A DNA stretch of 38,810 nt, taken from the IMG/VR virus record IMGVR_UViG_3300027861_000076, positions 1-38,810 of that record; one strand, 5' to 3'. The notes under the pieces were generated by a model, which ran no database searches, had not been told where the DNA came from, and saw only the letters and a list, made by a program, of their open reading frames with translations. Positions 3,486-38,810 of this stretch are shown piece by piece. The translations under genes and the position numbers were made by a program. Each line of letters begins with the position of its first letter. Position 1 is the stretch's first letter. Origin of the DNA: a virus.

Positions 3486-3492
3486 ATGGAGC
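3476..3492 (+). repeat. Small-gene boundary sequence, class A, copy 2
   Basis: This 17-base sequence is identical to 2544-2560. It again covers the last codons and stop of one gene and the GGAG ribosome-binding site of the next. Confidence 0.7.
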
Positions 3493-3497
3493 CAATT

Positions 3498-3668
3498 ATG
3501 CCCAAAGTTGAAATCACCTTGAACGAAAAGCAGATGGAAATTGTTGATCATCTTGCCGACACATTCGGGTTTTCAAGGGCAGAAGCGGCAAAGCATTTGT
3601 TATTACGTGACGCTTGGGACTGGTACGCAAAAGTAATGGTTCCAGAGCTTCGCAAAGACTCTACTTAG
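3498..3668 (+). CDS. Possible ribbon-helix-helix protein, 56 aa
   Basis: The start at 3498 (MPKVEITLNEKQ) is 6 bases after GGAG. The layout is a short N-terminal strand (KVEITL), helix (EKQMEIVDHLADTF), a turn with G-F-S, then helix (RAEAAKHLLLRDAW). That matches the size and order of a CopG/MetJ-type DNA-binding domain, followed by a Trp-rich tail. It is the last rightward gene, 26 bp from the end of the convergent lysis operon. It might be a transcriptional repressor; this rests on pattern only. Confidence 0.55.
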   Translation: MPKVEITLNEKQMEIVDHLADTFGFSRAEAAKHLLLRDAWDWYAKVMVPELRKDST

Positions 3669-14807: not shown

Positions 14808-15324
14808 ATTCTGTTCCCGGCCTCAAATTGGCCTTGTCAAAGCCGTATATTCCGGCGTCCCAATGTGACTGCAACAATTCGCTGCAATCCTGAATTTCAA
14901 CCTTTGTGCCTCGCGCCCTGGCAAAGCCGATCAGATATTCAAGGTTTGACCGCTGCGCCACATAATGACTGTCGAACGGAGCGCCAACACCGTAGATAGC
15001 GACCTTGTCGACAGCCTCATAAATGGCGTATGCCAACATGTAGGCGATACTGCTCTCAAGGTAGCCGCCAACCATATTCACAGCGCCCATCGGGAATGCT
15101 TCACTGTTGTGGATGCCTTCCATTTCATGCTGCATGACGACAGGCATATCAAGATCATTCAGCTTGTCCTTGTAGTTCTGCGTATAGGGCCGGACGTCGG
15201 GGTGGTGAACCTCAAAATACAGGTCATATGAACTGTCCCCGGACCACGGCAACCCCCAACGCTCAACATCCATTGGCGCGTCTTCCATGCCGCCACCAAG
15301 CCCTATGATGGCAACCTCCCTCAC
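14797..15324 (-). CDS. Rossmann-like hypothetical protein in the head-tail module, 175 aa
   Basis: This 175-residue protein begins VREVAIIGLGGG, a beta-alpha nucleotide-binding-like start, followed by WGLPW, a Tyr/His-rich segment (YDLYFEVHHPD) and a helix-strand pattern (VDKVAIYGVGAP, KVEIQDCSELL). Such proteins are recurrent in phage structural regions with no proven role. The start is GTG at 15324, overlapping the upstream TGA. An enzymatic modification of virion or DNA is possible; I assign nothing. Confidence 0.6.
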   Translation of the reverse strand: MREVAIIGLGGGMEDAPMDVERWGLPWSGDSSYDLYFEVHHPDVRPYTQNYKDKLNDLDMPVVMQHEMEGIHNSEAFPMGAVNMVGGYLESSIAYMLAYAIYEAVDKVAIYGVGAPFDSHYVAQRSNLEYLIGFARARGTKVEIQDCSELLQSHWDAGIYGFDKANLRPGTEYVS

Positions 15325-16222: not shown

Positions 16223-16240
16223 GTTTATTCTCCAAAGAAA

Positions 16241-16303
16241 GTGCAGGACAGGCCCACCGCAGCCCCCATTTTAGTGGGACCGCAGAGGCACCTGCCCCGT
16301 CAC
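16241..16303 (-). other. Structured intergenic stem-loop
   Basis: In the 81-bp gap 16223-16303, GTGACGGGGCAGG (16303-16291, minus strand) can pair imperfectly with CCTGTCCTGCAC (16252-16241), and inside lies a CCCA/TGGG hairpin (16265-16278). No T-run follows, so it is more likely a processing or attenuation structure than a terminator. Folding was done by eye. Confidence 0.35.
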
Positions 16304-16933: not shown

Positions 16934-16949
16934 CGGCTATTGTCCTTTC

Positions 16950-16992
16950 AAAAGAGGCGGGGGTCAGGCAAACATACTCAAGCCCGACCCCC
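16950..16992 (-). terminator. Intrinsic terminator after the major capsid gene
   Basis: On the minus strand GGGGGTCGGGC (16992-16982) pairs with GCCTGACCCCC (16969-16959) with one mismatch, a 12-base loop, then GCCTCTTTTG (T run 16953-16950). It lies 9 bp after the capsid stop, so it would reduce, not abolish, transcription of the distal tail and lysis genes. Confidence 0.75.
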
Positions 16993-17000
16993 TAACCGGA

Positions 17001-17939
17001 TCAGGAAGTGGTCAAGTCAGCAACAAGGCCGTGGGCGGCTTCGTTGCGGCACTCAATAGTCCACTCGCAAATGATCTGCTTGCGCTCGCTGTCGCCGGTC
17101 TTGGCAAGGTCAACAGTTTCCATGTTCCGCAGGGTGCTGAAGGCAACCATGTTGTGGTCGATCAGCATTGCAGTACGGGACCGGATGTGCCGTGACGGAA
17201 CGATTGACAGTTCACCGAAGTCCGAAACGTAGACATCGGCAGACGCGACGATTTTCTTGTCGTCAACGTCCTTGAACTTGGTGGCAACGCCTGTGAAGCC
17301 AGAGGCCACACGTTTGTTGAACGAACCGACATAGAGGGTGTCAGGCTCGCCACCAGCATCCCATGCAGCCTGGTGAACGTCCAGCAGCAGGCTTTCAGTG
17401 AAAGCGCGTTGCGTTCCGTCCGTGCGGGCTGTCGTACCAAGGGAACCGTCAGAACCACCAGCACCGGCTGACGTATTCGTGTCAATCCAGCTTTCCAGGC
17501 CACCAACTTCGCGGGCCAGCGTGTCGTTACCGGCGACCTTGATGTTGTTGGCAAAGATTGACAGTTCAATGTCAGTCTTCAGTTCACGGCCACGCTTGAC
17601 CAGTTGATAAGCCATGCGGCCAGAGCCACCAGCGTTGTCAACAGCTTCCTGAGTGCCGGTGATACGAGCCACCTTGTCAGAAATACCGCAGTAGTTGGTC
17701 AACCGTGTGGTCGCAACTTCAGCGTCCGTGGTTGCGTCGTCGCCTTCAATCACCCAGTTCTGGGCGGCTGAACCAAGGCTGTCAGTCTGCCATTCATGCA
17801 GAGTGCCGGTTGCCTTGTTGTTTGGCATTTTGGACATCATGGGGGTTTCCCAAGGTGCCACGTTGTAAATCACATCGGAAAGGTCTTCACGGTTTCCGAT
17901 TGTGCCATAGGTTGATTGTGTATTGCTAGGCTGTGCCAT
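17001..17939 (-). CDS. Major capsid protein, DUF5309 type
   Basis: A 312-residue HK97-fold-like capsid protein of the DUF5309 (SU10 capsid-like) type. Recognisable parts are the N-terminal YNVAPWETPMMSKMPNN, the VARITGTQEAVDNAG segment, the helix KRGRELKTDIELSIFANN, and the C-terminal ADVYVSDFGELSIVPSRHI with EWTIECRNEAAHGLV. It assembles the icosahedral shell. AAGGAATTGCAATC precedes the ATG. It is directly downstream of the scaffold gene and is followed by a terminator, as expected for the most abundant product. Confidence 0.88.
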   Translation of the reverse strand: MAQPSNTQSTYGTIGNREDLSDVIYNVAPWETPMMSKMPNNKATGTLHEWQTDSLGSAAQNWVIEGDDATTDAEVATTRLTNYCGISDKVARITGTQEAVDNAGGSGRMAYQLVKRGRELKTDIELSIFANNIKVAGNDTLAREVGGLESWIDTNTSAGAGGSDGSLGTTARTDGTQRAFTESLLLDVHQAAWDAGGEPDTLYVGSFNKRVASGFTGVATKFKDVDDKKIVASADVYVSDFGELSIVPSRHIRSRTAMLIDHNMVAFSTLRNMETVDLAKTGDSERKQIICEWTIECRNEAAHGLVADLTTS

Positions 17940-17956
17940 GATTGCAATTCCTTATT

Positions 17957-18913
17957 TTAACCCGTCAACAATGCTACAGCATCCTCGACGGAACCAGATT
18001 TACGGAGCCTTTCGACACCCTTCATCCGCTGGTCAGCCTTCATTGCGCTCTTGCCCTTTTTTGCACCCGGACGGATAACCTTCGCCTTGCCCTTGACTTT
18101 CTTCGCTGCCGTTTTGCTTTTGGCCTGCAATTCCCGCCATTGACGGGCGTCATGTGCCATAACGACAACTCTGTGGTCAAAGAGTTGTTCAAGTTCCTGT
18201 GCCGTGTACCCGATGCCTTGCATGTAAGTGCCTGCTGCGGCCTTTACTTGCGCGGCATTTTCCCCACCAAGTTCAGGGATGGCTTCAACCATCTTTGCCT
18301 GTTCCGCTTGAACGTAGCGTTGCAGGTTCTGCTGTTGTTCCACTTGCTCCTGTTGAGCCAGGCGCTGCCTTTCGGCAGTCATTGCGTCTTGCTCTGCCTT
18401 GGTGGCCTCATGGATAGCCCGCAAGCGGGTGTATTCAAGAGGGTCGTCGTTTGCAAGCTGAACCCAATCCGGCTCATCCTGCGGGGCCTTCTGCGCGGCT
18501 TCCAGCATCTGTGCAAGATGTTGGCGCTCCGCTGCGATTGACGCTTGCATGTCTGCCATTTGCTTTCGCTCGACAGCCATTGCTTGCGTCTTTTCAGTGT
18601 AATCCTTGTGCTGCATCATCGACTTTTCGACTTCAGCCAGGGTTATCTGCTGCCCTTTAATCTCAAGCAGTAGTTCCCCGTCTTCGTCGTCGTCTTCGTC
18701 AGCATCTTCATACACTTCCTCGTCAGCGTCCGTTTCTTCCGAAACTTCTTCATCAGAGGCCATAGCTTCAGTTTCTTCTTCATCAGCTACGGTCTCGCTT
18801 TCAGGTTCGTCGGTTGTCCCTTCGGGTTCCATTGATCCAGCAAGCAGTGAAACGGCATCATCAATTGACACCGGGCCTTCATGTGCATTCCCTTCCGGGT
18901 TATTGCCAGCCAT
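17957..18913 (-). CDS. Capsid scaffolding protein
   Basis: A 318-residue protein: an acidic, disordered N-terminal third (Glu/Asp-rich, residues 30-85), a long charged coiled coil (95-250, Gln-rich near 185-200: QQEQVEQQQNLQ), and a basic C-terminus (KVKGKAKVIRPGAKKGK). This is the usual architecture of phage scaffolds whose basic tail binds the capsid protein. It lies just upstream of the major capsid gene. GGAGATTTTAGACG precedes the ATG. Confidence 0.8.
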   Translation of the reverse strand: MAGNNPEGNAHEGPVSIDDAVSLLAGSMEPEGTTDEPESETVADEEETEAMASDEEVSEETDADEEVYEDADEDDDEDGELLLEIKGQQITLAEVEKSMMQHKDYTEKTQAMAVERKQMADMQASIAAERQHLAQMLEAAQKAPQDEPDWVQLANDDPLEYTRLRAIHEATKAEQDAMTAERQRLAQQEQVEQQQNLQRYVQAEQAKMVEAIPELGGENAAQVKAAAGTYMQGIGYTAQELEQLFDHRVVVMAHDARQWRELQAKSKTAAKKVKGKAKVIRPGAKKGKSAMKADQRMKGVERLRKSGSVEDAVALLTG

Positions 18914-18926
18914 CGTCTAAAATCTC

Positions 18927-19211
18927 CTAGTGAATGGCCTTCATGACACCGTTCATGGCGTCAAGTTCAGCCTGTGAGAGTTTCCCGTTCTGGATCGTGA
19001 TTTCCAGTTGTCGGGCCACCAATCTGACGACCTTGATTGCTTCCGCAAAACGGAAACGCGCAACGTCATCGTCAACGTCTGTTCCAAGTAGTGCCTCAAG
19101 ATACCGGCTTTCGACGGTTTCAAAGGCTGCTTTCAGTTCCTGGTTGTCCAGTAGCTGCTTTGCGCGGCCTGCCTTGTTGGTCGCTTCCTTCAGCTTTGTT
19201 TCTTTATCCAT
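18927..19211 (-). CDS. Small helical head-module protein, 94 aa
   Basis: The start at 19211 (MDKETKLKEATNKAG) overlaps the upstream TAA (TAATG). Highly helical and charged, with KAAFETVESRYLEALLG and FAEAIKVVRLVARQLE segments. Conserved-looking small protein between portal/head genes and scaffold. The family is unnamed. Possibly a chaperone or minor head protein. Confidence 0.6.
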   Translation of the reverse strand: MDKETKLKEATNKAGRAKQLLDNQELKAAFETVESRYLEALLGTDVDDDVARFRFAEAIKVVRLVARQLEITIQNGKLSQAELDAMNGVMKAIH

Positions 19212-20410
19212 TACCAATCTGCTCCTGATGGGCTTCCCTGGCCTTCTCCGCCACCTCCGCCACTGTACCCGCCGCCAGCGCCATCAGCGCCTGAATTATA
19301 TGCGGCGACGTCTGCTGCCGTGCCTGTGTAACCTAGGTTCCCAAAACCCATAGCCGCAGCATTTGCCGCCATTGCGGCCACGCCCGCCTGATGAGCCGCT
19401 GCAATTTGATCTGCGGGTGTTGGTTGTGCCGTATCAATCGCGTTAAGAATGCTCTGCATCGAAGTGCTGACAGGGGCAGCGGGTGTTGCCAAAGGCCCAA
19501 CTGGGCCTGAAGTTGGCTGCGGCCCTGGTGTCGGCAAGTTGCCCACCGTGGGGCCGATGTTGCCCTGGTTTGCCCTGCTCATAGAGATACCCGGCGAAGA
19601 CCTGTCTGCCATTGTTGCCAGCGCACCCTGCATTTCAGGCTGAGACATACCGAACATCGTTGCTGGCGACAGCGCCGCCATAGCGACCTGACTAGCAGAC
19701 ATTGGGCCTAACCCAACACTGGCGCGGGCGTTGTTAATCGCCCCCAACTCTGCCACACCAGCGCCAAGCGCAAACGGCGCGGCATATGTCGAAACGAGAT
19801 TTGAAATCGGGCCTGCAATATTGCCAATCGCCCGCGCCGTCGATCCTGCTTGACCAAAGCCACCTGTCGGGCGTCCGGTAAAGTATCCGTCAAACATCCC
19901 AGGGCTTACGGGGTTGCCCTGATTGTCAATACCGACAACCCCAGGGCCGTCGTCAAAGAGCGAGCCTGACGGAACCTGCCCGGCAGACACTTCGCCGCCC
20001 AAAAGGCCAGACAACCCTGCGCCGAAATCTCCGAAATAGTCAGGCATTTGGAAATCAAAACCACTCCCGCCCTGCATCGTGTCCGATCCGCCAGAACCGT
20101 AAACATCGCCGCCCGCGCCATCACCCTGATACTGTGGCCGGGGCTGGTAAACGTCATCATTACCTGCAAGACCGCCAGAAAGACCTATTCCAGGCTTCTG
20201 AGAGGGGGCAGGAGAGCCATTGGCCCCACCTTGCCAGTGGTAGCGGGTAAATTGGTTCTGAGGCGCCTGAAACGCAGCCTCGCGGGGCGCGTAGCTTTGG
20301 GCATAATCTGCAAGCCAGGGGTTATTCACAGGCGTAGTTGGGGCGGTGCCGAAAATCCCCTGCGAGATTTCGGGCTGTGCCTCTTGCGTCTGAAGTAATC
20401 CATATGCCAT
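19211..20410 (-). CDS. Gly/Pro/Ala-rich structural protein, 399 aa
   Basis: A low-complexity 399-residue protein rich in Gly, Pro, Ala, Gln and Asn, with a hydrophobic Ala-rich centre (YAAPFALGAGVAELGAINN) and a Gly-rich end (GAGGGYSGGGGGEGQG). The start at 20410 (MAYGLLQ) has AAGGTAAC just before it, 11 bases downstream of the predicted start point of the second late promoter (20428-20456). It lies in the head module before the scaffold. Internal virion or tail-associated role is possible; no family. Confidence 0.55.
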   Translation of the reverse strand: MAYGLLQTQEAQPEISQGIFGTAPTTPVNNPWLADYAQSYAPREAAFQAPQNQFTRYHWQGGANGSPAPSQKPGIGLSGGLAGNDDVYQPRPQYQGDGAGGDVYGSGGSDTMQGGSGFDFQMPDYFGDFGAGLSGLLGGEVSAGQVPSGSLFDDGPGVVGIDNQGNPVSPGMFDGYFTGRPTGGFGQAGSTARAIGNIAGPISNLVSTYAAPFALGAGVAELGAINNARASVGLGPMSASQVAMAALSPATMFGMSQPEMQGALATMADRSSPGISMSRANQGNIGPTVGNLPTPGPQPTSGPVGPLATPAAPVSTSMQSILNAIDTAQPTPADQIAAAHQAGVAAMAANAAAMGFGNLGYTGTAADVAAYNSGADGAGGGYSGGGGGEGQGSPSGADW

Positions 20411-20427
20411 TTTGTTACCTTGGTACA

Positions 20428-20456
20428 ATGATAACCGAAATCCGGTTAATTTACAA
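20428..20456 (-). promoter_or_regulatory. Late promoter copy 2, with inverted repeat in the spacer
   Basis: On the minus strand TTGTAA (20456-20451), a 17-base spacer and TATCAT (20433-20428) make a sigma70-like promoter. The spacer contains AACC...GGTT in inverted orientation (centre about 20441). The 30-base block, one base past the -10, is 25/30 identical to the one at 25990-26018, counting both hexamers. It would drive the 399-aa gene, scaffold and capsid. Confidence 0.65.
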
Positions 20457-20825: not shown

Positions 20826-22216
20826 TAGACCAACTCACGCCACGACACACCGCCGTCGATGTCTGCGCCGTTTGTCAGCGGTCGGACACACAACACAATC
20901 TCGTCAAGGGTGCCGTCAATGGCAGCACCAAGACGCAAGGCATTGCTTATCTCGACGGATATAGAACCAGTTGTATTCCCCGACTTTACGAAGCCGCCGT
21001 TCATTTCATGGCCCCCGGTTACTGTGTTCGCCGTTGCGCCTACTGCCGTCTGAATGGCGCTGTTTACGTGGTCAGTGTACGTGAACGTCCCGACAACGGT
21101 CGGGTTCCACATCACAATCCACTCAAAGTCATCTGCCGCAGCGTTAATCAGGGATATGTTTGTCAGGTCAACCACCTGCCCGATCTTGGCGGCTTGCAGA
21201 CGGATGCCGACAACCGCATAGAGGGTGTTGGCAGTATCTGCATCGATGTGCGTGCCTTCTGTCGAGTGATAATGCAGATTACCAATGCGTTCAACGCCGC
21301 CTTCACTGATTACCGTCGAACAAATATGTTGCAGGGTCGTCGCCGCACCTGTCCCGTCGTTCTCAAGCCAATACCGCAAGGGCAGGTTAGGCGTTGACAT
21401 GTAGACATTGCCGACAAGGTTAGCGTGGTGGAACGAGTGACACAGGATGAACTCGCCGTTGATAACAAACCCTGTGCGGACGGTCCCCACGCCGAGCCAC
21501 TCCATATCCATCCACCAGATTTGCGTCTGGGTCGGGTCCAGTGTCAGGCCAGACGGCCCGGTGCCGTCAAGGTTGTCTCCGTTGAAGCTGCCCTGGCTAA
21601 CGCTGTCCTCGACAACGGAACCAGACACGCCACTTGAAACAAACAACTGAAGGACGCCATCAACAGAGCGGACAGCGACGCCATCAGTTCCGTTGTACAA
21701 GCCCATGCCTGCGTCAATGCCGGACCCGCCGCCGCTATCCCCTATATTGCCTGTCATCATCACAAGCTGAGACTTGCCCGGCTGGTAATTAAACCGCTGA
21801 AATGTCTGGCGCACCCGCTTGCCTGCGGTGTTCAGGGCAACTCCGAGGGTGGAAGACGCCTTTAGCGTTGAATGAACGCTTGTTGTGCCGCCACCGCTGA
21901 CCTCTTGGTCATCCCAGTACAGGGGCGCGTTGTCGAATAGCTGTTTGCTGTCGAACAGCGTTGTCGGTGCGCTTACACGAAGCCAGCCGAAAGCACCACG
22001 CGACGCAGGATGCTCTATCTGTCGGACCAGCCCGCCGTAATCTGTTGAAGATGGTGTTGAGTTTGTGACTTTTGCGCGGGCGTCCGTGTCTTCAGGGTCA
22101 GCCAGAAACACAGCTTCACGGTGCGCCTGGGTTGAGCCGTCATCTTGCGTGATAACAGTCGTGTCAAGGTTCTTGCCTGATACGCCTACCGGAAGAAAGC
22201 CGTCTTCAACCGCCAT
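20825..22216 (-). CDS. Virion surface protein, lectin-like, 463 aa
   Basis: A 463-residue beta-rich protein. A central segment (IWWMDMEWLGVGTVRTGFVI, then a HSFHHANL strand) resembles a virion protein seen in several podoviruses directly after portal, with a concanavalin-like fold; I recall this pattern but not a family number. It may be a head fibre or decoration. AGGAAGTATGACAG precedes the ATG, and the start overlaps the portal stop by 11 bp. Confidence 0.6.
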   Translation of the reverse strand: MAVEDGFLPVGVSGKNLDTTVITQDDGSTQAHREAVFLADPEDTDARAKVTNSTPSSTDYGGLVRQIEHPASRGAFGWLRVSAPTTLFDSKQLFDNAPLYWDDQEVSGGGTTSVHSTLKASSTLGVALNTAGKRVRQTFQRFNYQPGKSQLVMMTGNIGDSGGGSGIDAGMGLYNGTDGVAVRSVDGVLQLFVSSGVSGSVVEDSVSQGSFNGDNLDGTGPSGLTLDPTQTQIWWMDMEWLGVGTVRTGFVINGEFILCHSFHHANLVGNVYMSTPNLPLRYWLENDGTGAATTLQHICSTVISEGGVERIGNLHYHSTEGTHIDADTANTLYAVVGIRLQAAKIGQVVDLTNISLINAAADDFEWIVMWNPTVVGTFTYTDHVNSAIQTAVGATANTVTGGHEMNGGFVKSGNTTGSISVEISNALRLGAAIDGTLDEIVLCVRPLTNGADIDGGVSWRELV

Positions 22217-24425
22217 CTGTCATACTTCCTGTCAGTGAACCATCAGCGTTGCGCTGGACGTTGATCTCGCGTGATCCGCCGCCGACGTTGACAGTAACAG
22301 GGTCTTTGGCTTCAGCCCTTGCGTTCGCACCGTCTGCAATCTTGGCAAGTTCCAAATCAGCTTTGGCATCAAGCTGCGCGGCTGATTGGGCCTCGTCGCT
22401 TCTGATTTTGGCTGCGGTCTGCTGCATATCTGCGGCAATCTTCTCGCGTTCAATGTCCAGCTTTTCGGCCTCAAGTTCCAGCTTCTGCATGGCCTCGTGG
22501 TGCGACAACTTGACCTGCTCTTGTTTGGTCTGGTTGTCCATCTGGGCCTTCTGCATGGCAATCTGGCCCTTCTGCTGTTCAATCTGCATCTGAGCCTGAA
22601 TAAGCGCCTGCTGTGGGTCTGGTCCTTGCTCTTGTTGCTGTGCCTGTCCATCGCCTGGATCAGAGAATGCAAAATCAGCAGACTTAAAGCCGACTGTGGT
22701 TATCATCTTTTCCATAACGTTGTAGATATGTTTCGGCGTGACCATCGGCCCCTTGGAGCCGGGAACGCCACCAGAGGCCAGTATTTCCTTCTGCCACATG
22801 AGAATGTTGTTCAGGTGGCTAACCTGCTGGTCGCGGTTGCCGTGGCCCAACCCGACTTCAATGGAAACGTCCATTTCAGGGTTCCAGCCGCTTGTATCCA
22901 TCTGCACCCATTCACCGCGCATCTTCAGCGTCCGGGGCTTGTCCTGATGCTCGACCAGCAGGTTAAGAATACGCCTGAACAGGTGCTTGACGCCTGTCTC
23001 TGCGAAGATGCGGGCAATCATTTCGACCCGCTGGTTCTTCTGCGCCATGTTGTTGTTGGACGCCGTGGCTGTTTCGTTCGCCAGCACATCAGCGTCAAGG
23101 GCAGCAGACATATCCGAAACGCCTGTGCGCTTCGACCCCATGTTGTCCAGGCCGTCAATCATCATGTATGACTTTTCAGCCACGAACGGGTAAGCGATTT
23201 CACGGCTTGCACCGATCTGCTCGACGCGCTTGATGCCACCGGGGCGCGTTGTCAGGAAGTCGTCAAGGTCAACAACCTTGTTAATGTCGACTTCACGTTC
23301 TGGATTGTTTGAAAGGTAAAGGTTGTTCAGGGTCTGGCGGAACAGGGTTGTCTTGATGCGTTCAAGGTCTGACATCAAGTCAGCAAGCGACAGCCCATAA
23401 GCCCGGTGCGGCAACGGGATCGGGCAAATCGTGCTAAACGGCTGGCCTTTAACTTCCGTCTTCTCAAGGATGTGTTCGCCAACCCAGACGATATTCCACC
23501 ACTCGGCAATGCCGTCGTCGTTCGTGTCAATGAACACATAGCTGTCGTGAACAATGACCTCTTTCATTGTGCTGTCAGCGTGTTCGTCTGTGTGGGTTGT
23601 GCCCATTCGGGCCTGTTCTTCGCCGTTCTCGTCGTTGCTGTCACCGCCAGGCAGGCTGTCAACAACTTTCTTGTCAAAGCCTTCCTCGACCAGCTTTGAC
23701 CTGGTCTTGCTTACCCGATGTTCAAGGTAAGCTGCCTTGTCCGGGTCTGCGCTGTCGTATGACTGATAAAATTCTTCGGGCGGGACAGGCAGGATTTCAA
23801 TGCGGCCCTTGGTGACTGTGCGCGTCACCTTGACGTTGTGGAATACTTCCGGCGACATGCCCTGCTCATCAACAAGCAGGTCAACGGCAGGGTCGTACTC
23901 AGAGCCGTCTGCCAGCACACTGGTATGTTCATCCACCTCAACGCTGTCGTCATACAGCAGGTTGGTAAGTTCCGGCAGTGACAAGCCGGTGTATTCTGTG
24001 GTGGTGGTGCTTTCGTCTTCGTTGTAGTCAGTCTTCAGAACGCCCATTTTCTGGAGCAATGCGTCCTTAAACCACGTATTCAGGATCAGAAAGCCGTTGT
24101 TATCCTTGTTGAACACCACGTTTGCAAGGTCTGTCGCCTGTTCTGCAAACTGCTCGTCTTCGGGGGTTTCCGGCTCATAGCGGATAATGTCATCGCCCGC
24201 AACGAAGATACGCAGCAGGCTTGGCATAATCCATTCAACAGTTTCAAGCGTTGACCGGGTGACGACTGTTGACTGACCGGCAACCTCATCACCAAATGGC
24301 AGGCCAAGGTACCTGTCCATAGCGTTTTCACGGTCGTCGGATATTTCTGATGTGACGTAACTCTGCGCCTGGGTGCTTTCCTGGCGGCAGATACTTAGAA
24401 TTTCGTTGTCTTTGAGTTTAGCCAT
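22206..24425 (-). CDS. Portal protein, P22/podovirus type
   Basis: A 739-residue portal. N-terminal helices and strands (residues 1-150), a mixed domain with the stem/clip region around 300-450 (PHRAYGLSLADLM, TTLFRQTLNNLYLSNNPER), then a Gln-rich coiled coil from about 575 to 715 (QALIQAQMQIEQQKGQ, alternating Lys/Glu helix) that could form a barrel like that of P22 portal. It forms the dodecameric DNA channel. Start overlaps the terminase stop (TAATG), the usual terL-portal order. Confidence 0.85.
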   Translation of the reverse strand: MAKLKDNEILSICRQESTQAQSYVTSEISDDRENAMDRYLGLPFGDEVAGQSTVVTRSTLETVEWIMPSLLRIFVAGDDIIRYEPETPEDEQFAEQATDLANVVFNKDNNGFLILNTWFKDALLQKMGVLKTDYNEDESTTTTEYTGLSLPELTNLLYDDSVEVDEHTSVLADGSEYDPAVDLLVDEQGMSPEVFHNVKVTRTVTKGRIEILPVPPEEFYQSYDSADPDKAAYLEHRVSKTRSKLVEEGFDKKVVDSLPGGDSNDENGEEQARMGTTHTDEHADSTMKEVIVHDSYVFIDTNDDGIAEWWNIVWVGEHILEKTEVKGQPFSTICPIPLPHRAYGLSLADLMSDLERIKTTLFRQTLNNLYLSNNPEREVDINKVVDLDDFLTTRPGGIKRVEQIGASREIAYPFVAEKSYMMIDGLDNMGSKRTGVSDMSAALDADVLANETATASNNNMAQKNQRVEMIARIFAETGVKHLFRRILNLLVEHQDKPRTLKMRGEWVQMDTSGWNPEMDVSIEVGLGHGNRDQQVSHLNNILMWQKEILASGGVPGSKGPMVTPKHIYNVMEKMITTVGFKSADFAFSDPGDGQAQQQEQGPDPQQALIQAQMQIEQQKGQIAMQKAQMDNQTKQEQVKLSHHEAMQKLELEAEKLDIEREKIAADMQQTAAKIRSDEAQSAAQLDAKADLELAKIADGANARAEAKDPVTVNVGGGSREINVQRNADGSLTGSMTDGG

Positions 24426-25690
24426 TAAACAATCCCGCTGTTATTATACTTTAGCGGCTCGGCCTTGGACTTCTCCTTGAGGCTGACCGCCAGGTATCTG
24501 AAGGCGTCGGCGTGATCCGACGTCCAATCATGCAGCGGGTTGTTGCGGAACGTCTTGCGTTTATCGTCGTACTCAGTCCGATATTGTCGCAAGGCTCGCA
24601 TTCCCGGAGCCGTCTTTTCTTTATCGAACCAACACCGCGACAGGATACGTCGGACAGCGTTAATTCCATCTTCAACAGACAGCTTGGGAGCAATTTTAAC
24701 ACGGATACCAAGTTCACGCAATGTTTCTTCCCTTGACTTGCCCGTGCCCAGTTCCCTGACCGCCACATCATGCGGGAAATTGTGCGTCCCGTAGCGATAG
24801 CCAAGGTCATCAGACCAAACCTTCAGAACGCCTGCGTAATGGCCCAAGCCCTGCCCTGTGCCTGCATAGTGGTTGATTATGTGTATCTCTTTGCCAACAA
24901 GCTGATAGGCCCAGATAACTGTGGCGTCATTAACACCCAAATCCCAGGCGGTGTGGACGTCAAGTTCGCTTTCAAACGGGACGGATGATATGCGACCGTC
25001 CTTGTCTGCGTCTTCCATGTAACTGCCGTAATATGCGCCGACGATGGCAGAACGGAAGCTGCACTCCATTTCCTGATTGTATTGTTCAGCAGACATTGCC
25101 TTCCGCATCTCGACCAGTTCGTCTTTTGGCACAATGTTTGTTTCACTGGCCTTCAGGATCGAAGTGAACCAGGTGTCGTCGTCAAGCCCTTCAGCGTATT
25201 TCTGGTAAAAGTCGTTCTCGCCCTTTGGTGTGCCAATCATGCAGCACCAGCCGTTGCGGTCTGCCAGACACGCTCTAAGCACTTCAGGCCAGGCTCGGGG
25301 GTCCATGTCCCCATATTCGTCCAGGACCATTCCATCAACGTATATGCCCCGCAGAGCGTCGTAATTGTCAGCGCCGTACAGTCTTATGCGCCTGTCGCCT
25401 ATATCAACCCGCAATTCACTCTCGTTGACAGTCACCTTGTCACCAAACGGACGGACAGCATCCTTCAGGATTTGCCAGGCAACGTCTTTAGCCTGCCTGA
25501 AGAATGGCGCGAGGTACACAAAGCGGGGGTTTGGTTTGTCACAGCGTATTGCAGCGTCTACAAGGTCGTTGATACAGGCTACAGTCTTGCCTGCGCGTCT
25601 GTGGGCTACAATGACGGACCAGCGTTGTGTTCGCATGTGGAAGTCAACGAACTGCTTGCGGGGGACATATCCTGTGTCAATCGTCGGCAC
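24425..25690 (-). CDS. Terminase large subunit
   Basis: A 421-residue packaging motor. ATPase: Walker A at 30-37 (HRRAGKTV), Walker B at 121-125 (MVLDE), coupling motif GTPKG at 153-157. Nuclease: Asp250 in AWDLGVNDA and Asp395 in SDHADAFRY, the RuvC-like acidic residues. It cuts concatemers and drives DNA into the prohead. The start is GTG at 25690, overlapping the small-subunit stop by 14 bp, without a strong ribosome-binding site, so translation is probably coupled. Confidence 0.93.
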   Translation of the reverse strand: MPTIDTGYVPRKQFVDFHMRTQRWSVIVAHRRAGKTVACINDLVDAAIRCDKPNPRFVYLAPFFRQAKDVAWQILKDAVRPFGDKVTVNESELRVDIGDRRIRLYGADNYDALRGIYVDGMVLDEYGDMDPRAWPEVLRACLADRNGWCCMIGTPKGENDFYQKYAEGLDDDTWFTSILKASETNIVPKDELVEMRKAMSAEQYNQEMECSFRSAIVGAYYGSYMEDADKDGRISSVPFESELDVHTAWDLGVNDATVIWAYQLVGKEIHIINHYAGTGQGLGHYAGVLKVWSDDLGYRYGTHNFPHDVAVRELGTGKSREETLRELGIRVKIAPKLSVEDGINAVRRILSRCWFDKEKTAPGMRALRQYRTEYDDKRKTFRNNPLHDWTSDHADAFRYLAVSLKEKSKAEPLKYNNSGIV

Positions 25691-25937
25691 GAGGTACGTT
25701 CGTTACTACGTTAAGGACAAGCTCGCCTTCAACGGTGGCTTTAATCTCGTTTGGTATAATCTTGCCCACAAGGCCCGCAAAGGTTCTAGGATCGTCCTGT
25801 GACAGCTTTACAAGCCACTCGACGCCTCCAGCCTTGTCAAAGGCTTCAACCATAGCTGCCCGCATGTCAGCGGTTTGCTTGTTTGGGGTGCCTTTTTTTC
25901 GCCCGCCTTTTTTGGGCTGTCCTTTTGGTGCTGCCAT
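25677..25937 (-). CDS. Probable terminase small subunit, 86 aa
   Basis: An 86-residue protein beginning MAAPKGQPKKGGRKKGTPNK, then a helix-rich core (MRAAMVEAFDKAGGVEWLV, TFAGLVGKIIP) that matches the short terminase-small-subunit-like proteins placed before large terminases. It binds packaging DNA; the basic start may contact DNA. Leader from the first late promoter (about 46 bases). Identity comes from position plus pattern; I did not compare sequences. Confidence 0.7.
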   Translation of the reverse strand: MAAPKGQPKKGGRKKGTPNKQTADMRAAMVEAFDKAGGVEWLVKLSQDDPRTFAGLVGKIIPNEIKATVEGELVLNVVTNVPRADD

Positions 25938-25989
25938 TCTATTTAAAACTGTTTTAGTATTGCTCTGGACCGGGTGCGTCCATTCCCAA

Positions 25990-26018
25990 ATGATAACCGA
26001 TTTCTGGTTATTTCACAA
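25990..26018 (-). promoter_or_regulatory. Late promoter copy 1, with inverted repeat in the spacer
   Basis: On the minus strand TTGTGA (26018-26013), a 17-base spacer and TATCAT (25995-25990). The spacer region has ATAACC (25993-25998, plus strand) and GGTTAT (26006-26011) as a perfect inverted repeat with 7 bases between. It is 25/30 identical to 20428-20456. It lies in the 70-bp gap upstream of the terminase small subunit and would drive packaging and head genes. Confidence 0.7.
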
Positions 26019-26214
26019 CCTTCATGCTTTCCCGCGACATCTGCCTGCGGACATATTCGACATTGCAGGCTGGTATTCCGCAGAGGCCAAGGCCAGCGTC
26101 AATGTCTACCCACAGCCAAGCCATGCACTGTGATGTGTGGCACTGGACCTCAACATTCTGGCAACAGACGACTTCTTCCAGGCTGTCTATGATGTTGGGC
26201 AGGACTTCAGTCAT
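26008..26214 (-). CDS. Small Cys-rich hypothetical protein, 68 aa
   Basis: A 68-residue protein with five Cys plus His (VVCCQNVEVQCHTSQC and later LCGIPAC), able to bind a zinc ion. Its start overlaps the upstream stop by 8 bp. It is the last gene before the first late promoter. No family. It may belong functionally to the IbrAB-like group upstream because it is co-transcribed. Confidence 0.5.
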   Translation of the reverse strand: MTEVLPNIIDSLEEVVCCQNVEVQCHTSQCMAWLWVDIDAGLGLCGIPACNVEYVRRQMSRESMKVVK

Positions 26215-26467: not shown

Positions 26468-27715
26468 TTAGGCGGTTAGTTCCATTTGCACTTGATCTTC
26501 CGTAACGTCCTTCAGCGCCTCCTTACGCCGTTTTTTAATGTCATGATACCTTTTCCACGCATCACTTTTTGGTTGCCCTTGCCCTAAGCCCTTGCACCAA
26601 TAATCATTCCTTAACAACACCTTACACATTCTGCGCCATGATGGCGCCCAACATTTTGCCTCAAGTTCAGGCGGCGCTTCTTCAGGTATGACCTCGTATC
26701 CGCGCTGGTGCCAACCATGAATGAATTTCTTGAACCGGGTTGTGTAATGCTTCCTCGTTTTGGGGGGAAGGGTCTGCAAAAGCATGTTGCAAAAACTCCG
26801 CCACGTATGGCCTTCTGGCTTCGTCACCTTGTTGTATCCAGTCATGTTGCCGTTTTCTTTGATGTAAAGCGCACCTGAATTTGCACCGTTCACCCTTGAG
26901 ATTAACTTATACCACGTTTCCGGCTCAAGTATATGATACAACCACAAACCCCGCCTTTGGTCGTCACCAAATGGCTGGCACAGGCGTTGCTGACTTAACG
27001 GAACACCGGCCATCTGCATTTTGTCGTAAATGTTATTGTGCGGCTTGTCCGGGAACATTGCATGGTAACGCCAAATGTCTTCTGTAAGCCAGTCGTATAT
27101 TGGGTAAACATTATAAACCTGATCAACAATCTTTGTCGTCCAGCGCCATTCATTCAACATCAAGTCACGCTTTTCCCAGGTTGCAATCGCACAATACCGA
27201 TGAAGGCTTTCTTGCGCCCTGATCCCAATAAACCCGGCTGTCTTTTTGCCTTGGCCATACCACTTGCCGAACAGAACAATAAATTCCTCAAACTCCATTT
27301 CAGGCAAAGCAAATGGATAATGGTCAACACCCTTGGCATTAACTGGCTTTTTCCTTACCCAATCATCCTTGCTGTCCTCGTCCCAACAAACCCAATGCGG
27401 TTCGTAATTGGTCAATGCGTTGCGAAGCCTCATCGGAACGCAAATCCAGTGAAGATCAATATTATCCCGGTACAGGGCGAACATCTCTTTCGCGTGGTCA
27501 ATCGTATCCTTGTATTGCGCTTCCATGTCAATCAGCATAACGCCAACCTTCATATCCCGCTTCACAGCCTCTTCCATGACAAGATGGAACATAACACTGC
27601 TGTCTTTGCCGCCTGAAAACGCAATATATGCACGGTCAACGGCATCCAGGGTTTTGTTGATCCGATGCCTTGCAGCATCCAGAACACTCACATCATTGAA
27701 TTTCTTAACTCCCAC
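26468..27715 (-). CDS. PAPS reductase-family protein, IbrA-like
   Basis: A 415-residue protein from GTG 27715 (AGGGAG 7 bases upstream, inside the end of the previous gene). PP-loop SGGKDSS at residues 34-40 places it in the PAPS reductase/ATP pyrophosphatase family; the long C-terminal half with WRRMCKVLLRNDYWCKGLG looks like DUF3440, as in E. coli IbrA. It lacks an obvious sulfonucleotide-reductase active-site Cys in the usual end motif. Its partner gene just upstream is ParB-like (IbrB type). IbrA/IbrB in E. coli prophages regulate eib genes; the biochemical role is unknown. An earlier ATG start at 27799 lacks a good ribosome-binding site. Confidence 0.8.
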   Translation of the reverse strand: MGVKKFNDVSVLDAARHRINKTLDAVDRAYIAFSGGKDSSVMFHLVMEEAVKRDMKVGVMLIDMEAQYKDTIDHAKEMFALYRDNIDLHWICVPMRLRNALTNYEPHWVCWDEDSKDDWVRKKPVNAKGVDHYPFALPEMEFEEFIVLFGKWYGQGKKTAGFIGIRAQESLHRYCAIATWEKRDLMLNEWRWTTKIVDQVYNVYPIYDWLTEDIWRYHAMFPDKPHNNIYDKMQMAGVPLSQQRLCQPFGDDQRRGLWLYHILEPETWYKLISRVNGANSGALYIKENGNMTGYNKVTKPEGHTWRSFCNMLLQTLPPKTRKHYTTRFKKFIHGWHQRGYEVIPEEAPPELEAKCWAPSWRRMCKVLLRNDYWCKGLGQGQPKSDAWKRYHDIKKRRKEALKDVTEDQVQMELTA

Positions 27716-27728
27716 AGCATTGCTCCCT

Positions 27729-28871
27729 TTAATAAATTTCAGACTGTCTGGATGGAATAGCGTCAGACATTTCGACAGCCGGAAGATTGTTCTCAACAAG
27801 CCACTTATTCAGATACTTCAAGGCCATCTCGTTAGCATCTTCCTGTTGGCCCTCTGTCAACAACCCGAAACCGCCACGGAACTCTGATGGTATTCCTTCA
27901 GAATAGCACAAAGCAGCCTGGCCAAGCCAGGCAATTCTATTCATCGCAGTATTTGTGAGATAATGCTCACATGAGCGTTTCCACTCACCAGTGACGCCAG
28001 ACAATCCAGCCTCAAACCGGGTTAAGTCAGCCAGAAAATCACGGTAGACCGCCTTGCAATCATCCTTTGTCATCCCGGATGGTGGCTTTGATGAATAAAA
28101 TCCGGCCTTGTTGCACTCCCATTTGTCAAATGTATGGAATATGCGGTCTTTGTCTCCAGTGTTTACCGTTCTGGACAATTCAGCCTCATCATATCCAGTT
28201 ATGTCGTCTGTCAACTCTTCAAAATCATCTTCAGTAATTGCACCCTCGACATCCCATGATTTTGAAAACTCCTGGTCACTGAAAATATCAGTAAGACCTG
28301 AAATTTGGCATAGACGCAAAATCTCGTCCTGCTCCATGCCAAGCTCCCGCCCTATTCTGGTGTCGGTCCAGTTGCGCTTTTTTAACTCAATGACAATATC
28401 AGACATGCTTTCAATCGCATGCTTGCCCCTTGCCCGGTTGTGACGGATAGTAGACGCCATCCGGTCGCTGCGGCCTTCATGAGACGGCCTGATCTTAACT
28501 ACCGGCAAATACCCCAAAACCCTTGACTGGATGTCAGGGCATTCCTTCCCAACCCGGTGACGATGAAACCCGTCGATAACCTCAACAGTTCCGTCATCCT
28601 GCGGCCAGGAAACAATCGGCTGAGTATATCCATCGTTTGATATTGATTTCCGCAACAATTCCATTTCGGGCGGCGCAACGCTGTTTGGGTTGTAGTCATT
28701 AGCAACAACCATATCGTTTTTCATCCAGAACACACAATCAACAGGCTCCGACGAAAACGGGCTGTATTCCCCAAGAGACGCCCTGATTTCATTTATAGCG
28801 TCAATCCTTTCCGGCAACTCCATCCCGGAAAGCGCTTTAAAAATACCCGAACACTCATCAACTATTGACAT
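27729..28871 (-). CDS. ParB-like protein, IbrB-like
   Basis: I start at 28871 (MSIVDECSG) because AGGGAGAG lies 6 bases before it; a start at 28907 gives 12 more residues. The 380-residue product has a ParB/sulfiredoxin-like N-terminal domain (DGFHRHR at about 100-106, with QPIVSWPQDDGTVEVIDGF leading into it) and a helix-turn-helix (WTDTRIGRELGMEQDEILR, about 168-186). A C-terminal domain of about 170 residues is unassigned. It sits directly before the PAPS reductase-like gene, 13 bp apart. The pair matches IbrB/IbrA. No centromere-like repeats or ParA gene were found, so partition is unlikely. Confidence 0.8.
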   Translation of the reverse strand: MSIVDECSGIFKALSGMELPERIDAINEIRASLGEYSPFSSEPVDCVFWMKNDMVVANDYNPNSVAPPEMELLRKSISNDGYTQPIVSWPQDDGTVEVIDGFHRHRVGKECPDIQSRVLGYLPVVKIRPSHEGRSDRMASTIRHNRARGKHAIESMSDIVIELKKRNWTDTRIGRELGMEQDEILRLCQISGLTDIFSDQEFSKSWDVEGAITEDDFEELTDDITGYDEAELSRTVNTGDKDRIFHTFDKWECNKAGFYSSKPPSGMTKDDCKAVYRDFLADLTRFEAGLSGVTGEWKRSCEHYLTNTAMNRIAWLGQAALCYSEGIPSEFRGGFGLLTEGQQEDANEMALKYLNKWLVENNLPAVEMSDAIPSRQSEIY

Positions 28872-31583: not shown

Positions 31584-32174
31584 TTATATTCCCCATTGGT
31601 TAGCCATCGCATCAGCAATGCCCTGATAAGTTATTGACCGCAACATGCCGCGATATTCTGACGGCGGTAGACTATGTATCCGGCCTTCGCGACCTTCCAC
31701 GATGCCCGTCGGCTCTAACGGCGGCAGGTTCTTTAGCCACAACCCCGTTGCCTTTGTCTCACCATGCCCGAACATCCACGGCTGGACTATCTGGGTCTGT
31801 TCGACGCCAATCAATTCCTTGGCGTAGCGGTGCATTATAGGGTTTTCGACACAGACACGATCTGCCGGGGAATTGAGCATCGCCTTGAAGAAGTCAGCAC
31901 CACGTACCATGTCAGCCCACCTGTGGGCATCAGGGCCATTCTTAGCTGCACCGCCTTTATAAAGCCACCTGACCCCCGAATTGCAAAGGTAAGTGCATGG
32001 TGGGTGCGCGATGATTAAGTCCCAATCCTTGTGGATAATGTCCATCACATCGCCTTGATAGTGATGCTCAAATTTATCTGACGGCAGGATGTCACATGAT
32101 ATAGCAACATGCCCCCGCTTCAGGAACGCATCGCGCACGACGCCGGAGAACTCACAGGCTACCAGCACTCTCAT
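31584..32174 (-). CDS. DNA methylase-like protein (HPPC motif), 196 aa
   Basis: From ATG 32174, one base after the upstream stop, with GGAATATAAC before it. The 196-residue protein has a Rossmann-type start (MRVLVACEFSGVVRDAF, GHVAISCDILP), then IIAHPPCTYLCNSG (residues 54-67; Cys60 in the PPC position of cytosine methylases), CVENPIMH and a C-terminal ITYQGIADAMANQWG. Members are usually annotated as DNA cytosine methyltransferases or methylases in phages. No target-recognition domain is visible, so activity and target are unknown. Confidence 0.7.
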   Translation of the reverse strand: MRVLVACEFSGVVRDAFLKRGHVAISCDILPSDKFEHHYQGDVMDIIHKDWDLIIAHPPCTYLCNSGVRWLYKGGAAKNGPDAHRWADMVRGADFFKAMLNSPADRVCVENPIMHRYAKELIGVEQTQIVQPWMFGHGETKATGLWLKNLPPLEPTGIVEGREGRIHSLPPSEYRGMLRSITYQGIADAMANQWGI

Positions 32175-33465: not shown

Positions 33466-34336
33466 TCTCAGCCTCCAGAATTGCGTTGCCAATCATTTCG
33501 GGAATTTGCGGGATGACGGCGTTGCCTAATCCTTTAAGTCGGTCCACCCTTCTGGGTATCCCATGAGCCACTCGACCCACTGGGGGTTCAGTCGGCCAGT
33601 GTCCTTCAGGGCCGTTTGGACTGGGCGACCCGTTTTTTTGCTGTGCGGCTTCCCTGTCCCGTCCCACGGGTTGCCTTGACTGTCTACCAGTTACCCGCTT
33701 TGTGTTATCTTCCCCGCTGATGGTGTCGGCCACATCCTCACCGTGTCTGCTAAATTCAAACTGTGGCTGGTTTTTCCGTCCTTTGATTTGCGCCGACCTG
33801 TTTTTGTTAATTCTGCTGCCGGATGCTCTATCTCTTGCGTTGTCATCGTGGGCAATAACCCAAACCCTGTCTCTGCGGTGCGGGGCATCGACGGCACAAG
33901 CTGGAATAACAACCGGCCAGCAGGTGTATTCTTCGCCTTCCAAGTCAGAAAGCACTTCGTCGAGGCCCATTGTGATGTGTCCAGAAACATTCTCAAACAC
34001 GCACCAACGGGGCCGGATGGAAGCCACGATCCTTTTAACTTCAGGCCAGATGTGACGGTCATCTTCCGCGCCATCGCGCTTCCCGGCGTAGCTGAAGGGC
34101 TGGCAGGGGTATCCGCCTGTGATGACGTCAATTCTTCCAAGTCCATCTGCCTCAAGTCTGTCACGGCTTAACTCCCTCACATCCTCATATATTGGCACAT
34201 CGGGCCAGTGTTTTTTCAATACCTTTTGCGGGAATGGCTCAATCTCGCAAAAGGCGACGGTTTCAAAGCCGGCCGCTCTTTCAAGGCCAAGGCTAAAGCC
34301 GCCAATGCCTGAGAACAGGTCAAGAACTTTCAGCAT
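33452..34336 (-). CDS. DNA cytosine-5 methyltransferase
   Basis: A 294-residue C5 methylase from ATG 34336, overlapping the HTH gene end by 17 bp. Motif I DLFSGIGGF (6-14), motif IV GGYPCQPFS with catalytic Cys78, motif VI ENV (115-117), motif VIII-like RRDRVW (154-159), and the C-terminal GLGNAVIPQI. The region between 165 and 250 is the target-recognition part. It probably protects phage DNA from host restriction or regulates phage genes. GGTGGAAG lies just before the start. Confidence 0.92.
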   Translation of the reverse strand: MLKVLDLFSGIGGFSLGLERAAGFETVAFCEIEPFPQKVLKKHWPDVPIYEDVRELSRDRLEADGLGRIDVITGGYPCQPFSYAGKRDGAEDDRHIWPEVKRIVASIRPRWCVFENVSGHITMGLDEVLSDLEGEEYTCWPVVIPACAVDAPHRRDRVWVIAHDDNARDRASGSRINKNRSAQIKGRKNQPQFEFSRHGEDVADTISGEDNTKRVTGRQSRQPVGRDREAAQQKNGSPSPNGPEGHWPTEPPVGRVAHGIPRRVDRLKGLGNAVIPQIPEMIGNAILEAENETD

Positions 34337-34517
34337 CTTCCACCACCTTGATTTCAACAGCCGCAGCAACAGCGTCTGGCGTTGTCCTGTACCGCTTGGC
34401 AAGAACAACCTGCCACTTGTAAGGGATGCCGCGCCGTTTCCAGCTTCTAACCGTGCTTGGCGGGACGCCCATTCCTTCGCTATCCCGCCGCACCTTTGTC
34501 CATTCGATTTTCTTCAT
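34320..34517 (-). CDS. Small Cro/CI-like HTH regulator, probably leaderless mRNA
   Basis: A 65-residue protein with a helix-turn-helix of Cro-like type (EWTKVRRDSEGMGVPPSTVRSWKRRGIPYK, recognition helix near STVRSWKRR; shown here in parts). It has an acidic C-terminal tail. There is no ribosome-binding site: the -10 box (34529-34524) lies six bases before the ATG, so transcription starts at or one base from the AUG. It is the first gene of the leftward transcript and divergent from the rightward early promoter. Likely the switch regulator of the divergent control region. It does not contain a CI-like dimerisation domain. Confidence 0.75.
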   Translation of the reverse strand: MKKIEWTKVRRDSEGMGVPPSTVRSWKRRGIPYKWQVVLAKRYRTTPDAVAAAVEIKVVEDAESS

Positions 34518-34523
34518 GGGTAG

Positions 34524-34552
34524 GTTATATTAAATTAAATTACGTTTTGCAA
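34524..34552 (-). promoter_or_regulatory. Leftward promoter in the divergent control region
   Basis: TTGCAA (34552-34547), a 17-base spacer and TATAAC (34529-34524) on the minus strand. The -35 lies in the left half of the operator. Transcription starts about 34517, at the AUG of the HTH gene. Confidence 0.75.
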
Positions 34553-34567
34553 CATTATTCTGTTGCA
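34548..34567. promoter_or_regulatory. 20-bp palindromic operator between divergent promoters
   Basis: TGCAACA (34548-34554), six bases TTATTC, then TGTTGCA (34561-34567) form a perfect 7-bp inverted repeat. The left arm overlaps the -35 box of the leftward promoter and the right arm the -35 box (TTGCAT, 34563-34568) of the rightward promoter. A dimer bound here would block both. It is the best candidate target of the small HTH protein. Confidence 0.72.
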
Positions 34568-34606: not shown

Positions 34607-34637
34607 AAACAGACTTACAAAGGAAAACACCATGACA
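34607..34637 (+). repeat. 31-bp leader repeat, copy 1
   Basis: Identical to 38003-38033. It covers the end of the mRNA leader, the ribosome-binding site (AAAGGAAAACACC) and the start codon plus ACA of the first gene after each rightward promoter. Confidence 0.85.
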
Positions 34638-34865
34638 AACGTCAACAGCATCGAAAACCACATTCGCAGGCTGGTCGAGGAATTCCCGGCAAACAAAGTT
34701 CACATTAAAAACCCGCGCCTTGCATTTGAACTGAAAATGCCGGTTGCAATTTATAGCCCATACGCTGCGGTGGTTGGTGGCGAACGGTTTCCTACGGTCC
34801 TGACATTTGATGGCGTCATCAAGCAGACCACCCATGCAGACGCTTTCGGCGGGGGTGCAAGCTAA
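34632..34865 (+). CDS. First rightward early protein, 77 aa, unknown
   Basis: A 77-residue protein starting MTNVNSIENHIRRLVEEF; AAAGGAAAACACC precedes the ATG. It has a helical N-terminus and a beta-rich second half (NPRLAFELKMPVAIY). Being the first early gene it may act in host takeover or regulation; the family is not recognised. Its start region is the 31-bp duplicated block. Confidence 0.65.
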   Translation: MTNVNSIENHIRRLVEEFPANKVHIKNPRLAFELKMPVAIYSPYAAVVGGERFPTVLTFDGVIKQTTHADAFGGGAS

Positions 34866-37959: not shown

Positions 37960-37988
37960 TTGACGCATTGCGCAACATGCCCTATATT
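37960..37988 (+). promoter_or_regulatory. Second rightward promoter, with operator-like core
   Basis: TTGACG (37960-37965), 17-base spacer, TATATT (37983-37988). The spacer contains the palindrome TTGCGCAA (37968-37975) followed by CA, i.e. the GCAACA half-site (37972-37977) found in the divergent operator. Confidence 0.75.
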
Positions 37989-38002: not shown

Positions 38003-38033
38003 AAACAGACTTACAAAGGAAAACACCATGACA
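38003..38033 (+). repeat. 31-bp leader repeat, copy 2
   Basis: Identical to 34607-34637; spans the leader end, ribosome-binding site and start of the gene at 38028. Confidence 0.85.
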
Positions 38034-38297
38034 CACACACCAGCCCCTTGGAATGTAACCCCCGGCGGATCGGTTCAAGTAGGAACAAGCTATTTCGTTG
38101 ATCACACCAGCGATGATCAATTTCAAACAATCCCACCCGCAGACGCCAACATGATGGCAGCGGCTCCTGATTTGTTTGACGCCCTCGTTAATGTTCTGAG
38201 CCAGATTAACCACCCTGACGGCTGGAACGCAACGCACCCGCATGTGATAGATGCCAAAAATGCCGCATATGCCGCAATCGATAAGGCTCGCGGTTAA
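38028..38297 (+). CDS. MTHTPxPW-type phage protein, 89 aa
   Basis: An 89-residue protein starting MTHTPAPWNVTPGG and containing the segment ADANMMAAAPDLFDALVNVL. The pattern (N-terminal THTPGPW, then NAxLIAAAPDLLEAL) is a very common phage/prophage early family with unknown function. AAAGGA precedes the ATG. It is the first gene after the second rightward promoter. Confidence 0.75.
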   Translation: MTHTPAPWNVTPGGSVQVGTSYFVDHTSDDQFQTIPPADANMMAAAPDLFDALVNVLSQINHPDGWNATHPHVIDAKNAAYAAIDKARG

Positions 38298-38617: not shown

Positions 38618-38810
38618 GCAAGTTCTACGTTGTGAAGACCCTGACAGGGCTTTTACCATCAAACAGGACATCTGAAGAAACCATGCAGAAGCTGAAGACA
38701 GGTCAGGAATACATGGTTGAAGTCAAGCAGCCAAGGAACCTGAAGCATCACAAGAAATTCTTTGCTCTTATCAACCTGGTGTTTCAGAACCAGGAACGAT
38801 ACAGCAGCGA
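38614..38810 (+). CDS. DUF1367 family protein, N-terminal part (continues at 135)
   Basis: The frame starts at ATG 38614 (MSKFYVVKTLTGLLPSN) and is open to the window end; it continues at base 135 of the window and ends at 360, giving 140 residues. The start overlaps the upstream TGA (ATGA). MSKFYVVKTLTG is a typical DUF1367 N-terminus. Confidence 0.88.
   Translation, partial: MSKFYVVKTLTGLLPSNRTSEETMQKLKTGQEYMVEVKQPRNLKHHKKFFALINLVFQNQERYSS
38685..38810. repeat. Right copy of terminal direct repeat
   Basis: Identical to 9-134 over 126 bases. Upstream of it, 38675-38682 equals 1-8 but the next two bases (AT) are absent in the left copy. Confidence 0.95.

Follow-up and report, generated by a model that had tools for sequence, protein, structure and literature searches.

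The window analysed here, the whole 38,810-nt virus record IMGVR_UViG_3300027861_000076, carries two copies of a promoter-like unit in which an inverted repeat spans the spacer between the -35-like and -10-like hexamers (copies A and B; Table 1). This duplicated unit with its spacer-spanning dyad is a real feature of the genome, and it is probably functional, although the type of switch would be an ordinary one. We would give roughly even odds to the reading that the copies are two sigma70-type late promoters with a spacer operator for a dimeric regulator, which most likely represses them.

The record looks complete, and is probably a whole genome, because a 126-base direct repeat lies at both of its ends (1-134 and 38685-38810); in a relative, G001, the end repeat is 127 bases long. 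The head genes (portal phrog_1216, capsid phrog_1328, scaffold phrog_3927) are podophage-like as a set. Leftward genes occupy the stretch between 34.5 and 4.8 kb; the rightward early genes begin at 34.6 kb, continue past the end of the record and finish at about 3.7 kb. Terminase and capsid are less than 50% identical to those of the closest isolated phages, and the phage group is therefore uncultivated; judged from relatives, its hosts would be proteobacterial, possibly alphaproteobacterial. To our knowledge, late-gene timing has not been studied in uncultivated phages of this head type. Upstream of the packaging block, a PAPS reductase-like auxiliary gene (26468-27799) has a ParB-like gene as its neighbour.

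The duplicated promoter-like unit

Copies A and B are identical at 25 of 30 positions, in agreement with the initial annotation, which had matched a site before terminase with one before a structural sub-operon; both were recovered on the minus strand. Each pairs the hexamers TTGTRA and TATCAT at the N17 spacing of sigma70-type promoters, with 9 of 12 positions matching sigma70. Both TAACC/GGTTA arms and the -10 are invariant, and the five differences fall in the -35, the 5' part of the spacer and the loop. Sequence agreement sets in at the -35-like hexamer, upstream of which it is patchy, and stops one base beyond the -10. As in spacer operators, the centres of the arms lie 11-12 bp apart, about one helical turn; the dyad extends across the 17-bp spacer and reaches the -10, its centre falling at approximately -19 from the inferred start. 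The AACC and GGTT arms had been placed in the spacer, and the dyad is indeed present, but its right arm extends out of the spacer into the -10, since the final T of GGTT is the first -10 base. No third copy had been found by eye, and our scan of the genome likewise located TAACC-N7-GGTTA at copies A and B only.

Table 1. Features of the window and of the relative G002 that are discussed in the text. Positions are those of the window unless a record is named.
Feature	Positions	Strand	Sequence or basis of assignment
Copy A, TTGTAA-N17-TATCAT promoter-like sequence with inverted repeat, upstream of scaffold/capsid sub-operon	20427-20456	-	TTGTAAATTAACCGGATTTCGGTTATCATT
Inverted repeat of copy A, 6-bp arms TAACCG/CGGTTA	20432-20448	-	TAACCGGATTTCGGTTA
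Copy B, TTGTGA-N17-TATCAT promoter-like sequence with TAACC-N7-GGTTA inverted repeat, upstream of small terminase	25989-26018	-	TTGTGAAATAACCAGAAATCGGTTATCATT
Inverted repeat of copy B	25994-26010	-	TAACCAGAAATCGGTTA
Small terminase-like gene, 86 aa, first after copy B	25677-25937	-	Position and similar G001 gene; phrog_11043, function unknown
Terminase large subunit	24425-25690	-	
Portal protein	22206-24425	-	phrog_1216, 5e-147
Gene of unknown function, start MAYGLL, first after copy A	19211-20410	-	Start and upstream gap recur in relatives
Head scaffolding protein	17957-18913	-	phrog_3927
Major capsid protein	17001-17939	-	phrog_1328
Candidate regulator 1, 65-aa carph-isopro/Cro-like HTH, first gene of leftward operon, divergent from early operon	34320-34517	-	Domain match below cut-off
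Candidate regulator 2, 60-aa RHH-like protein, near end of rightward early operon	3486-3668	+	phrog_4738 transcriptional repressor, 2.6e-4
Candidate regulator 3, DnaA domain-IV-only protein, 133 aa	32176-32577	-	Pfam PF08299, 4.2e-17
8-mer sites in relative G002	L104:1500-8020 and position 16863 of record G002		AATGTACC

Such a pair is not expected by chance. Surrogate genomes from a second-order Markov model (n = 24) contained on average 0.08 direct pairs at 25/30 identity or better, against two in the real genome, namely copies A/B and an apparent duplicated early leader. The pattern shared by A and B, with up to three mismatches allowed, had no match in dinucleotide shuffles. From 17.0 to 26.2 kb, moreover, no gap other than the two that house these copies reaches 20 bp. 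Within these limits the earlier statement that they fill the only sizeable gaps of the head/packaging region stands, but two other gaps adjoin the capsid gene (16223-16303 and 16934-17000). These two look GC-rich and terminator-like. Plain sigma70 sites (9/12) are not above chance in that half of the window (18 against 17.2 expected), and the inverted repeat alone is not significant in either copy (p 0.17 and 0.13). The case for the A/B unit is made by its duplication, exact boundaries and placement, not by promoter score or dyad alone.

Those p values would suit two ordinary sigma70 promoters that arose by recent duplication and carry an incidental, unbound dyad, as would the duplicated promoters without a conspicuous dyad in two related contigs (L072 and L073) and a promoter-like site lacking a dyad at the same place in another relative (L089). 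However, a recent duplication would not be expected to end at the hexamers, vary the loop and the -35 and yet spare both arms, and G001 retains the dyad with a paired change; an incidental dyad is therefore an explanation to which we give some weight while thinking it rather unlikely. One automated screen of related contigs for gap elements present in duplicate is no clean negative, since it failed to pick up the A/B pair itself, one of whose gaps was masked by a long antisense ORF.

The existence of an inverted repeat could also point to a single-stranded hairpin or RNA element, such as an N4-type hairpin promoter, an attenuator or a terminator. This is highly improbable, since RNA folding of the two copies is no better than that of shuffles (z -0.66 and -0.09), Rfam returned no match, and the repeat has a loop of 5-7, lacks a U-tract and is located before the inferred start. 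The end of a small Cys-rich ORF (26008-26214, 68 aa, two CX4C pairs), for which we found no relatives among annotated phages, overlaps copy B.

Recurrence in relatives and in unrelated phages

Records from IMG/VR whose capsid genes are related (49-88% identity) were compared with the window wherever the record reaches the gap in question. A promoter position recurs in the gap before the MAYGLL-type gene, which starts the scaffold/capsid block: this gap has a promoter-like sequence in the window, G001, L089, L094/L095/G002, L096 and L097. In G001, AATTAACnnGATTTnnGTTA is retained immediately ahead of the orthologous gene, though the upstream gene differs, and the arms read TAACT/AGTTA where those of the window read TAACC/GGTTA, which amounts to one compensatory change (a C-G to a T-A pair), the only one seen. 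Among relatives, G001 alone aligns with the window element at this position; L089, L095/G002, L096 and L097 differ, L096 having a dyad of its own. Across relatives the dyad at the capsid position is not significant overall, with low values only in G001 (0.043) and L096 (0.066). In the gap before the small terminase of G001, a promoter-like site carries another dyad, TTCAATA-TGT-TATTGAA, and a search of terminase relatives found the exact motif in none of them. The initial annotation had named lack of conservation of the pair in related phages as evidence against its proposal, and the identical pair did prove private to this phage; what is conserved is the element at the capsid position of G001, and it is not conserved in the other relatives.

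The dyad was also sought throughout IMG/VR with the pattern TTG-N2-A-N2-TAACC-N7-GGTTATNAT, which itself sets the register to the hexamers. It occurred in 14 records representing 11 distinct sequences, all 11 outside genes (three touch the end of the upstream gene). A control with a scrambled left arm gave 10 records and seven distinct sequences, six of them inside genes and one outside. The raw record count is not far above that of the control and only location differs (11/11 against 1/7 outside genes; Fisher p 0.0004), in a comparison that uses one scrambled control and mechanical gene calls. The sequences are mostly full-consensus sigma70 promoters (TTGACA in 9 of 11), and three of the loci adjoin HTH regulator genes. 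Their location supports the dyad as a putative working operator in promoter spacers generally, without proving the case of this phage.

TAACC-N7-GGTTA spacer promoters occur in T4-like and other unrelated contigs, a recurrence of half-sites that would be explained if a conserved host regulator bound the dyad. Against such a host factor, a stricter 20-base pattern matched only once in 84,980 bacterial and archaeal genomes (a Rikenellaceae MAG), which is about chance level, and three phage loci have their own adjoining HTH gene; we regard it as improbable. A wider proposal is that TAACC-N7-GGTTA in strong sigma70 spacers forms an operator class of many unrelated phages, read either by a widespread family of small HTH repressors encoded by phages or by a conserved host factor, and here holding back the packaging and capsid blocks together. 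We consider a class of this breadth quite unlikely, and the recurrence of the dyad at unrelated-phage promoters makes it testable.

Candidate regulators and the early region

The initial annotation saw no obvious late activator gene, and in doing so overlooked at least three candidate DNA-binding proteins, an HTH protein, an RHH-like protein and a DnaA domain-IV protein (candidates 1 to 3 in Table 1). The structure model of the HTH protein is of low confidence (pLDDT 60) and gave no basis for a fold search; the RHH-like protein matches RHH_1 below cut-off, and its model (pLDDT 83) has two helices. Neither protein has relatives among annotated phages, and the DnaA-IV protein has none in IMG/VR. 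The late dyad may be bound by the phage HTH protein, the phage RHH protein or a host factor, all of them candidates only. A perfect DnaA box, TTATCCACA, lies at 32030-32038, inside the gene adjoining the DnaA-IV gene. We rejected a DnaA-box reading of the late dyad, as its arms mismatch TTATCCACA and boxes are present elsewhere than at the late sites.

The HTH gene and the early operon diverge from a region with a perfect inverted repeat, TGCAACA-TTATTC-TGTTGCA (34548-34567), which is probably the early operator. As the site of the late regulator, TGCAACA-N6-TGTTGCA was discarded, being present in a single copy, in the early region and with a different half-site; conversely, the late dyad is absent from the early region of the window. 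Similar GCAACA/TGTTGC pairs were seen in gaps of G002 (5881) and G003 (15143-15163), and single GCAACA matches mean little because GCAACA is over-represented genome-wide. A lone ATAACC half-site overlaps a -10-like sequence before the HTH gene and may be due to chance. The duplicated leader, AAACAGACTTACAAAGGAAAACACCATGACA, stands before two early genes (34607-34640 and 38003-38036, 97% identical), and its copy at 38003-38036 is preceded by a promoter-like TTGACG-N17-TATATT (37960-37988).

In the relative G002 (IMGVR_UViG_3300025759_000472), the 8-mer AATGTACC occurs seven times against 0.4 expected. Its sites surround a carph-isopro HTH gene in the divergent early region, and also occur within an early-promoter spacer (TTGACG-GCAAAAATGTACCGCGC-TACTAT) and beside the capsid-operon promoter. 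The HTH proteins of the window and of G002 have 11 of 17 residues in common in the predicted recognition region, and both match the same NCBIfam domain below cut-off. This phage group probably has an operator common to its early and late genes. Given the placement of the 8-mer and the likeness of the HTH proteins, it is plausible that in this group a phage regulator reads one short early and late operator, the sequence of which changes between lineages.

A putative spacer operator and known systems

For copies A and B we infer promoter activity, late firing and repression alike. In the mechanism that we favour, the copy B promoter would start the packaging/portal block and the copy A promoter the scaffold/capsid block. 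TAACC-N7-GGTTA in each spacer would act as a dyad operator, both arms of which could be taken, on one face of the helix, by a dimeric DNA-binding protein, and one shared regulator would thereby control the two blocks together. The bound protein would compete with RNA polymerase and keep the late genes off while it is present; they would open once it disappears or is outcompeted. If this is true, a spacer operator coordinates the switching of packaging and capsid genes, and the two 30-bp sites offer a direct handle on the regulator.

That one regulator serves both copies, as first proposed, is in keeping with their positions before terminase/portal and scaffold/capsid and with the recurrence of a promoter-like site at the capsid position in relatives. 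The late activator that had been implied fits less well, for the dyad is centred in a normal 17-bp spacer, where bound proteins usually block polymerase (PMC7804116). In E. coli promoter libraries, operators in the 17-bp spacer repress by direct competition with polymerase (PMC7804116). Repression is most likely here, given a spacer of canonical length (17 bp) and a site that would compete with RNA polymerase, and the regulator is more likely a repressor than an activator. It is conceivable that a protein bound to the same promoter-operator pair activates late transcription, by MerR-like distortion or by contacting sigma from the spacer, since both copies drive blocks that must fire late and the -35 (TTGTRA) is imperfect. 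Activation nevertheless appears unlikely, as MerR-type sites have spacers of 19-20 bp and most of the unrelated-phage promoters with the same dyad are full-consensus and need no activator.

Several known systems resemble this arrangement in part. First, in P2 (Ogr/Delta), Mu (C) and phi29 (p4), one phage regulator serves several late promoters through sites with dyad symmetry. Those sites are at or upstream of the -35, whereas the site here is in the spacer and touches the -10. The late-gene activator system of phi29 p4 has been described (PMC3100819). Second, an N4-type hairpin promoter combines a short-loop hairpin with a phage virion RNA polymerase, unlike the present loop of 5-7 nt, which folds no better than shuffles; a non-exhaustive search found no RNA polymerase among the genes annotated in the window. 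MerR-type promoters likewise have a dyad, but in a spacer longer than the 17 bp seen here. Third, the MqsA operator is 5'-AACCT(N)3AGGTT-3' (PMC4894380), and its AACC/GGTT half-sites, situated in promoters and bound by the helix-turn-helix domain of the repressor, are like those found here (PMC4894380). However, AACC and GGTT are separated by 5 bp in the MqsA operator and by 7 here, and no MqsA-like protein was recognised among the proteins scanned.

Fourth, GroEL-adjacent and other uncultivated-phage promoters of the form TTGACA-N2-TAACC-N7-GGTTATAAT (L083-L088, L195-L203) have the same arms and register as copies A and B; they belong to unrelated phages, with a single copy per record and other downstream genes, whereas this phage has two copies. 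Finally, in the spacer operators of phage and bacterial repressors, and in the tested lacO constructs (PMC7804116), a dyad lies in the 17-bp spacer with its arms about one turn apart and the bound protein competes with polymerase, as would be the case here. The present pair differs from them in that its regulator is only a candidate and that one operator stands on two late blocks of one phage. The spacer-operator switch is already known in kind, and the A/B pair adds another case to it.
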